A DNA stretch of 64,000 bases from an uncultured Pelagibacteraceae bacterium (GTDB lineage Bacteria; Pseudomonadota; Alphaproteobacteria; Pelagibacterales; Pelagibacteraceae): contig CACGFJ010000002.1 of assembly GCA_902572225.1 (NCBI GenBank), positions 1 through 64,000 of the forward strand, written 5' to 3'. Shown here one piece after another: positions 3,655-51,216 of the stretch; position 1 is the stretch's first letter, and each line of letters opens with the position of its first letter. The position numbers were made by a program, and so were the translations under genes. Below the pieces are notes generated by a model. That model was not told the origin of the DNA and ran no database searches. It saw only the letters and a program-made list of their open reading frames with translations.

Positions 3655-3682
3655 AAAATTTAAATAAGTTTGATTTTAGATG

Positions 3683-3723
3683 AAATAACTGTCAGGTTAT
3701 TTGTGGCAGTGTTTAGTGCACTA
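3683..3723 (-). promoter_or_regulatory. Inverted repeats in the rpsL leader
   Basis: Two inverted repeats lie in the predicted 5' leader of rpsL-rpsG-fusA. One is AAATAAC / GTTATTT, seven perfect pairs with a six-base loop (3683-3702), ending 29 bases before the ATG. The other is the perfect palindrome TAGTGCACTA (3714-3723), which could also pair with a nearby TAGTG/CACTG copy. No T-run follows either, so they are not terminators. Ribosomal-protein leaders often bind their own product; that role here is inference. Confidence 0.4.
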
Positions 3724-3752
3724 GTCACTACATTCCAACCAAAAACACGCAC

Positions 3753-3780
3753 AAAATACTATAGAATTTCCATTTGTCAA
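3753..3780 (-). promoter_or_regulatory. Predicted sigma-70 promoter for rpsL-rpsG-fusA
   Basis: On the minus strand a perfect TTGACA (3775-3780) is followed after 16 bases by TATTTT (3753-3758). It sits between the rpoC stop and the rpsL start, the only sizeable gap in this block. A start about seven bases downstream would give a leader of about 90 bases. Confidence 0.6.
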
Positions 3781-48839: not shown

Positions 48840-50294
48840 ATGAATAATTCGGGAAAAATTGATCCCTACGGCTTTCGGGAATATGACGCACGATGGGTAT
48901 ACGAAAAAGACATAGATGACGATGGAATCGTTCAACTTGGCAAAGGTCTTGGAACTCAAATAATTAATCATACAAAGAAAAACAATCCAAGAATTATCGT
49001 TGGCCAAGATTACAGGTCTTACAGTGAACATATCAAAGAAAAATTAAAAGAGGGTTTAGTTTCAACTGGGTGCAAAATCGAAGATATAGGATTATCTTTA
49101 TCCCCAATGGTTTACTTCGCTCAATTTAATTTAAATTCAGATGCAATAGCTATGGTTACAGCTAGTCATAATGAAAATGGTTGGACAGGTGTAAAAATGG
49201 GTATCAAAAAAGGACTTACTCATGCACCGGAAGAAATGAAAGAACTAAAAGATATTACTCTCAATCAAAAATTTATTAATGGAGAGGGAAATGTAAAAAA
49301 AATTGACGATTTTCAGAATGTTTATAAAAATGATTTGATAACAAAAAACCCATTAAATAAAAAAATTAAAGCTGTAATTGCTTGTGGCAATGGAACAGCA
49401 GGAATATTTGCACCAGAAATTTTAAGAAGTATTGGGTGCGAGGTAATTGAACTTGATTGTGAACTTGATTGGACTTTTCCAAAATACAACCCAAATCCTG
49501 AAGACTTAGAAATGTTAAATGCAATTTCAAAAGCAGTTAAAGAAAATAATGCTGATATTGGATTTGGTTTTGATGGAGATGGAGATAGAGTTGGGGTTAT
49601 AGATGATAAGGGTAATGAAATCTTTTCTGATAAAATTGGACTTTTAATTGCTAGAAATCTGTCAAAAGATCATAAAAATAGTAAATTTATAGTTGATGTA
49701 AAATCGACAGGACTTTATTCAAATGACAAAATATTAAAAGAAAATAAATGTGAAACAATTTATTGGAAAACTGGTCATTCCCATATCAAAAGAAAGGTAA
49801 ATACCGATAACGCTTTAGCAGGATTTGAAAAAAGTGGTCATTTCTTTTTTAATAAACCTTTAGGATTTGGCTATGATGATGGAATTAATTCAGCAATACA
49901 GGTCTGTAAGTTACTGGATAAAAATAACAAAAAAATGAGTGAAATACTTGATGAATTACCAACTACTTATCAAAGCCCAACTATGGCTCCTTATTGTAAA
50001 GATAGTGAAAAATATGATGTAGTTGAGAATTTAGTTAAAGAAATAACAAATATTAAAGAAAATAAAACTAAAGTAGATGATCAAGAAATTAGAGAAATAT
50101 TAACTGTTAATGGAGTAAGATTTTCTTTTGATGATGGATCTTGGGGATTAATAAGAGCATCTTCTAATAAACCCTCTTTAGTTGTAGTTACTGAGAGTCC
50201 AACCTCTGAAGATAGAAAAAAGAAGATTTTTGACTTTATTGATAATCTGCTTCAACAAACTGGTAAGGTTGGGGATTATGATCAAAAAATTTAA
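48840..50294 (+). CDS. manB: Phosphomannomutase/phosphoglucomutase
   Basis: Alpha-D-phosphohexomutase, 484 residues, interconverting 1- and 6-phosphates of mannose or glucose. Four active-site loops are in order: MVTASHNENGWTG (phosphoserine), GFGFDGDGDRVG (Mg2+), GFEKSGHFFF (sugar), RASSNKPSL (phosphate). The GEXSGH-type loop with EKSGH suggests dual mannose/glucose use; a GlmM role is less likely. Monocistronic, divergent from nrdA, and facing the GC-rich element and TSUP gene at its 3' end. Confidence 0.88.
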   Translation: MNNSGKIDPYGFREYDARWVYEKDIDDDGIVQLGKGLGTQIINHTKKNNPRIIVGQDYRSYSEHIKEKLKEGLVSTGCKIEDIGLSLSPMVYFAQFNLNSDAIAMVTASHNENGWTGVKMGIKKGLTHAPEEMKELKDITLNQKFINGEGNVKKIDDFQNVYKNDLITKNPLNKKIKAVIACGNGTAGIFAPEILRSIGCEVIELDCELDWTFPKYNPNPEDLEMLNAISKAVKENNADIGFGFDGDGDRVGVIDDKGNEIFSDKIGLLIARNLSKDHKNSKFIVDVKSTGLYSNDKILKENKCETIYWKTGHSHIKRKVNTDNALAGFEKSGHFFFNKPLGFGYDDGINSAIQVCKLLDKNNKKMSEILDELPTTYQSPTMAPYCKDSEKYDVVENLVKEITNIKENKTKVDDQEIREILTVNGVRFSFDDGSWGLIRASSNKPSLVVVTESPTSEDRKKKIFDFIDNLLQQTGKVGDYDQKI

Positions 50295-50347
50295 AATTCA
50301 ACTATAAAGAGTTAAGAAAAAATTAGAGAATCGAATAATATGTAATT

Positions 50348-50384
50348 GAGGTGGCGGAGGGAGACTGAAACCACCTCGTCTCCT
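50348..50384. other. GC-rich structured element between convergent genes
   Basis: A 37-base block of about 60% GC in AT-rich surroundings. GAGGTGG (50348-50354) can pair with CCACCTC (50371-50377), and GGAGAC (50360-50365) with GTCTCC (50378-50383); the two stems interleave. On the minus strand they could form an H-type pseudoknot that begins directly after the TSUP stop codon. No T-run follows on either strand, so it is not a standard intrinsic terminator. Confidence 0.55.
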
Positions 50385-51216
50385 AGGTCACTAAAAATCT
50401 ATATAGAAATAAAGTACCAATAACGTAAAGAAAAACACCAAATAATCTTTGTGTTTTAACTCTATCTAGATCTTGAACTGTTTTTGCTCCAATCCTTGCC
50501 ATGAATGTGGTTATTGGAACAAAAATTATAAATGCAGGTATATTAATAAATCCAATACTGAGTGGAATATCGGCATTTAACATCAAGCCAGATGTAAAAA
50601 AACCAATTGATCCAAATAAAGCTATTATAAATCCAATGGCTGCAGAGCTTCCTATTGCTAAGTTAATAGGATAACCAAAGTATCTTAATATAGGAACATT
50701 CATCATAGCTCCTGTTATGCCCATAGGAGCAGATATTAATCCTGACAAGAATCCAAATATTATTCTTGGAAAAATATTAAATTTTTTCTTAATTTTTTTT
50801 TTCTTTTCACTTTGTAACAACAAGTAAGCTCCAAAAAAGTAAACAACAGCAGAAAAAAAGAATAACAATGTTTTAGTATTCATCAAAGCTGCCATCAATG
50901 TTCCAGAGAAAACTCCAATTATTACAAATGTTCCATAATTTTTAATAATATTAAAATCAACAGCATTATACTTTCTATGAGTTAATACTGAGGCTGTAGC
51001 AGTTAAAATTGTTATTGAGAAAGCTGTCCCTACAGATAAATGCATTAAATAATCTTTATCCACGTTAAATGCTTCAAATACAAAAAATAAAAATGGAACT
51101 GAAATTAATCCTCCACCGATACCAAAAAAACCTGCAAAAAAACCAACCGGAACAGCGGCTGCCATCATTAAAAAAATAAAATAGATATTATTAATCTCAA
51201 GAAGAGTATTATTCAA
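50383..51216 (-). CDS. TSUP family (TauE/SafE) membrane permease
   Basis: 277 residues with about eight membrane helices in two similar halves: AAAVPVGFFAGFFGIGGGLISVPFLF near the start and FPRIIFGFLSGLISAPMGITGAMMNVPIL in the middle, the paired glycine-rich motifs of the family. TSUP proteins move sulfite, sulfoacetate, taurine-derived or other small organic anions. Starts with TTG inside the dusA 3' end (eight-base overlap); an internal ATG pair 16 codons on is the alternative. Last gene of the dctPQM-MCD operon, so a carboxylate or CoA-pathway anion is a reasonable but unproved substrate. Confidence 0.82.
   Translation of the reverse strand: MNNTLLEINNIYFIFLMMAAAVPVGFFAGFFGIGGGLISVPFLFFVFEAFNVDKDYLMHLSVGTAFSITILTATASVLTHRKYNAVDFNIIKNYGTFVIIGVFSGTLMAALMNTKTLLFFFSAVVYFFGAYLLLQSEKKKKIKKKFNIFPRIIFGFLSGLISAPMGITGAMMNVPILRYFGYPINLAIGSSAAIGFIIALFGSIGFFTSGLMLNADIPLSIGFINIPAFIIFVPITTFMARIGAKTVQDLDRVKTQRLFGVFLYVIGTLFLYRFLVT

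Follow-up and report, generated by a model that had tools for sequence, protein, structure and literature searches.

A candidate stand-alone hairpin RNA gene of SAR11 bacteria with a predicted GcrA/CcrM-type promoter and a loop motif recurring in SAR11 phages

Described systems closest to the element

SAR11 bacteria are among the sea's most abundant, with very streamlined genomes and few described regulatory RNAs. The rhtB element of 'Candidatus Pelagibacter ubique', described by Meyer et al. in 2009, is followed by a poly-U run in about half of its examples (PMC2704228). Like the element analyzed here, it is a SAR11 intergenic hairpin with a conserved loop, but the two lie at different loci and differ in sequence in HTCC1062, and our covariance model of the whole element (model R1) has no match to rhtB, leading us to reject rhtB as its identity. 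In the same survey, the HTCC1062 spacer 1142870-1143031 (COG0659/HIT) drew 29 BLAST hits, below the 200-hit cut, and was assigned no RNA (PMC2704228). We found no report of the element in SAR11 or pelagiphages in a literature search outside which most subscription journals lay, nor any mention of it in the main text of PMC5069720, and Rfam matched it to no known family at either gathering or permissive thresholds. Elsewhere on the stretch of DNA under study, 64,000 nucleotides from an uncultured Pelagibacteraceae bacterium (hereafter the window), an rpsL-leader RNA (RF01823) lies at 3670-3755 on the minus strand, above its Rfam gathering score.

A second point of reference is the promoter class controlled by GcrA and CcrM in Caulobacter, where protection of ctrAP1 between -35 and -10 by GcrA depends on methylation (PMC3667746) and the extended GcrA motif is YGAKTCK (PMC7987155). 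The SAR11 element likewise has GANTC between its predicted -35 and -10, in an extended form, MGAATCR, that is the reverse complement of YGAKTCK. The Caulobacter promoters drive protein genes, whereas the SAR11 element would drive a tiny RNA.

Here we describe what appears to be a previously unnamed, tiny hairpin RNA gene that is carried by most sampled SAR11. Positions 50298-50385 of the window (plus strand) very probably constitute a small RNA gene that stands alone and has a promoter of its own. On balance, we also favor a fuller reading, in which this independent tiny RNA would be under GcrA/CcrM control and would share its loop motif, and probably a protein partner, with phage mRNAs.

A covarying hairpin and its strand

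In the window, an 88-base spacer separates the convergent pgm (48840-50294, +) and TauE/TSUP (50383-51216, -) genes. The GC-rich patch that a preliminary description had noticed in this AT-rich spacer is plainly there: GC content reaches 64% in 50348-50383, against 19% in 50295-50347 and 31% window-wide, and equally GC-rich 37-mers make up 0.14% of those in the window. So are the two interleaved perfect stems, with GAGGTGG (50348-50354) pairing with CCACCTC (50371-50377) in stem 1 and GGAGAC (50360-50365) with GTCTCC (50378-50383) in stem 2, although the minus-strand GGAGAC, placed by that description just after the TSUP stop codon, has the G of the TAG itself (50383) as its first base. Folding energy alone is unremarkable (z = -1.3), with modest z-scores throughout, so the significance of the element lies in conservation, stem 1 covarying across SAR11 and stem 2 not. 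Alignment of relatives revealed three conserved plus-strand parts, namely the box TCAAYTAWWAMGWGTT, the block MGAATCRNNTA and a hairpin with the loop NKAGGGAGACURAR, of which AGGGAGACURA forms a near-invariant core (Table 1).

Table 1. Predicted parts of the element, in window coordinates
Feature	Position	Strand	Basis or remark
Upstream box TCAAYTAWWAMGWGTT	50298..50313	+	Column frequencies in 184 distinct elements; alignments
Predicted -35, TTNANA (TTAAGA in window)	50312..50317	+	18 nt before -10
CcrM-type GANTC site, extended form MGAATCR, between -35 and -10	50327..50333	+	
Predicted -10, TANNNT (TAATAT in window)	50336..50341	+	
RNA hairpin, 7-bp stem plus Y.R eighth pair (C.A at 50355/50370)	50348..50377	+	Covariation, consensus fold, single-sequence folds
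Hairpin core: 3x3 internal loop GGA/GAA, G.U, G-C, GAGA tetraloop	50361..50364 (tetraloop)	+	
3' tail	50378..50385	+	T-run in most relatives; GTCTCCTA in window's clade

In a set of 41 distinct host hairpins, pairing in stem 1 reaches 94.8%, seven of its eight pairs show two-sided changes, and no shuffle attained its covariation score; a pyrimidine invariably faces a purine in the eighth pair (U.G, U-A, C.A or C-G). When the inner six pairs of the stem are read on the plus strand, G.U outnumbers A.C by 27 to 1, an excess that argues for a plus-strand RNA. TTTTT follows closely 3' of the stem in 118 of 184 distinct elements, while about a third, including that of the window, have no T5 run. A small RNA or 3'-end RNA structure, one of the options raised initially, was thus the right class; the minus-strand reading was not, since both the G.U excess and the 3' T-runs point to the plus strand. 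An alternative in which the element acts as DNA, serving replication, integration or the control of methylation as a hairpin or a site bound by protein, would accommodate its single copy per genome, strict core sequence and CcrM site, but these same pair counts are those expected of a plus-strand RNA and the promoter and T-run are positioned for transcription, making a DNA role very unlikely.

Stem 2, by contrast, is 63% paired in the same 41 hairpins, which does not exceed the level of slid controls, and shows no double-sided change. Its presence in the window is explained by the window's clade having GTCTCC where most relatives have the T-run. Because stem 2 arose only in this clade, which has lost the terminator T-run, the ideas built on it fail: a minus-strand pseudoknot or an element for read-through of the TSUP stop codon, suggested by the two interleaved perfect stems, is scarcely credible given the clade-restricted stem, the contrary pair counts and the different genes that adjoin the element in many relatives, and a tRNA remnant is unlikely, as neither ARAGORN nor Rfam gave a match. 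The covariation analysis that had been proposed for both stems therefore bore out one and not the other.

The core is best read, from modeling of the fold, as a 3x3 GA-rich internal loop followed by a G.U pair, a G-C pair and a GAGA tetraloop. Phage EXVC025P carries GCGAGAGU, in which the G-C pair is swapped and the GAGA loop kept. Mimicry of a Shine-Dalgarno sequence by the loop (GGAGG) was considered and rejected because that part varies (AGAGGG, GTAGGG, GGCGGG). A window-wide scan for MGANTCRNNTANNNT returned two matches, the number expected by chance, and the motif alone is therefore no evidence elsewhere.

Predicted promoter, distribution and gene neighborhood

Promoter columns were compiled from 184 distinct elements anchored on GAATC, with GAATC, but not its flanks, forming part of the collecting criterion. 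These flanks are A/C and A/G in 181 of the 184, compared with 28% of other GAATC sites. In the -10 columns, TA occurs in 98-99% of elements and T fills the sixth position of TANNNT in 76%, versus ~40% at neighboring positions; in the second genus alone, it does so in 15 of 18. From the end of the -10 to the stem there are 6-10 nt in 171 of 180 elements, which puts the predicted transcript start on the hairpin's first base (50348) or just before it. The upstream box, probably an activator site abutting the -35, is not universal, having been lost in one clade (L229-L233, L239 and L240). That clade has TTTTAAAAAAAATATTTTGATTCG in its place, together with a second GANTC site.

Two features expected of GcrA/CcrM promoters are found here at the level of prediction: an extended GANTC within the putative core promoter, and an organism that encodes GcrA and CcrM. 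GcrA, which matches a solved structure, is encoded in 20 of 21 genomes; in the genome of the window one N6/N4 methylase was found, and it matches CcrM, again in a solved structure, over nearly its whole length. We consider it somewhat more likely than not that the promoter is under GcrA/CcrM control. With a methylation-type promoter and a single copy in about two-thirds of sampled genomes, the RNA gene offers a concrete candidate GcrA/CcrM target in SAR11.

When 40 relatives were searched with the spacer, many members of the genus matched at ~50324-50377, including some whose flanks could no longer be aligned. Within the genus, model R1 detected the element in 231 of 399 genomes, almost always as a single copy, and across the family in 187 of 298 genomes, confined to two of ten genera. 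A model of the hairpin only (R2) recovered a very similar set and found nothing in 21 genomes that R1 had left unmatched. In a class-wide alphaproteobacterial sample, R2 matched 3 of 386 genomes, all from the window's genus, and no other alphaproteobacterium among the 386; a scan of named genomes likewise had only Pelagibacteraceae/Pelagibacterales among the matches listed. One of the genomes with the element, at 1142942-1143038, we take to be HTCC1062, an assignment to which the coordinates and gene neighbors point; the element thus falls in the spacer that Meyer et al. listed without analyzing it. The corresponding sites are ~1,142,997 (+) in HTCC1062 and ~765,734 (-) in HTCC7211. In genome G405 the RNA gene occurs twice, with 480 bases between the copies (L222 2310-2405 and 2790-2885).

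The surroundings of the element are far from constant. At 151 distinct loci, the upstream gene may be pgm (+), a charged coiled-coil-like gene (-), a small lipoprotein-like gene (+) or another, and the downstream gene TSUP (-), DUF2061 (+), HIT (-) or another. Neighbors thus vary in identity and strand on both sides, divergent upstream genes included, and the element would accordingly need its own promoter. In the second genus it occupies an unrelated locus, with NlpC/P60 and a transporter downstream and a variable gene upstream, such as a glycosyltransferase. About a third of near-complete genomes do not have the element; in several genomes without it, the pgm and TSUP stop codons lie only a few bases apart, and a pgm tree requires at least four changes between presence and absence, which may reflect repeated loss. 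Together, the varied loci, the absences and the state changes indicate a dispensable, stand-alone unit able to occupy different loci.

These observations also bear on a simpler explanation, in which the hairpin is a conserved intrinsic terminator or 3'-end stabilizing structure of the upstream gene and its loop is favored only for stable folding. The element often lies 3' of a stop codon with a T-run after it in most species, its phage copies (below) are intergenic too, and Meyer et al. raised the same idea for the rhtB element (PMC2704228). A generic terminator would, however, recur within a genome rather than occur once, would not be preceded immediately by a conserved promoter, and would not so often follow a gene that points away from it; we regard this explanation as unlikely. 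For the independent RNA gene, comparison supports a scheme in which sigma-70 RNA polymerase would start at or next to the first hairpin base, from a promoter with the CcrM (GANTC) site in its spacer, and transcription would end soon after the stem, at the T-run in most species. Control by GcrA and CcrM methylation would couple expression of the gene to replication and the cell cycle, and the resulting RNA of ~35-40 nt would act in trans, presenting its core to a SAR11 RNA-binding protein or nuclease.

Copies of the hairpin in SAR11 phages

Phages T4, MS2 and T7 carry translational operators or mRNA-processing hairpins that are intergenic and combine a fixed loop with a free stem. Hairpins with the SAR11 core follow the same plan, but differ in that one hairpin stands before different genes in unrelated phages and also in a candidate host RNA gene. 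A pattern scan of IMG/VR recovered at least 120 marine phage contigs with the same core, where we estimate that chance would give about one match or fewer. Comparing the 89-mer directly with phage sequences returned nothing useful, because stems and flanks differ between host and phage. Isolated SAR11 phages with the hairpin include HTVC019P, HTVC031P and HTVC201P, with variants in HTVC011P and others; it was not found in HTVC010P, nor in the region of HTVC200P that was examined. The genes on either side are those of phages: sites include the spacers lysozyme|primase, capsid|tail tube A and phrog_2402 protein|primase, and others adjoin, for example, 2OG oxygenase or late-promoter regulator genes. 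All 20 matching phage records that were searched whole contain exactly one hairpin.

Phage copies have neither the GAATC promoter nor the T-run, so what host and phage share is the hairpin itself. The core is common to both while the stems vary freely, which makes a shared recognition motif the most likely explanation. The presence of the same hairpin in SAR11 and in many of their phages suggests one common partner that reads host and viral RNAs, and the simplest purpose of the hairpin in the intergenic stretches of phage transcripts would be to exploit or titrate that partner. Whether host RNA and phage hairpins truly have a partner in common we judge an even call on the sequence evidence. 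Convergence on a very stable loop is a possible source of the likeness, against which the rarity of the hairpin elsewhere speaks. More tentatively, host and phage may be engaged in RNA mimicry, in which a methylation-timed tiny RNA and single hairpins in transcripts of unrelated SAR11 phages compete for one RNA-binding factor; a host regulatory RNA circuit would then be hijacked or titrated by the phages, or expression of phage genes dampened by the host RNA.

The relationship could also run the other way, with the host RNA, modeled on the operator hairpin of a phage, serving as an antiviral decoy and titrating an RNA-binding protein of the phage. The recurrence of the core in several kinds of phage, once per genome and near replication or structural genes, would fit such a device, as would repeated loss in hosts, which suits a defense trait. 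Yet the binding protein would have to be common to unrelated phages, and HTCC1062 and HTCC7211 have the RNA gene and still host such phages, which leaves the decoy an improbable option. In either direction, the common loop provides a defined bait for a factor that both sides may use, and thereby an entry point to the study of phage-host regulation in the ocean.

Behind their major capsid gene, SAR11 phages have a second hairpin, whose loop ATTAACACAGACAAT is conserved (L391 21056-21136, L395 21227-21307 and L394 20577-20762); in HTVC011P it adjoins the GGGAGAC hairpin, and a search for its loop motif in hosts gave chance-level matches only. In lysozyme|primase spacers of the HTVC019P type, a long perfect GAAA-loop hairpin followed by TTTC precedes the GGGAGAC hairpin (L391 8867-8900 and equivalents).
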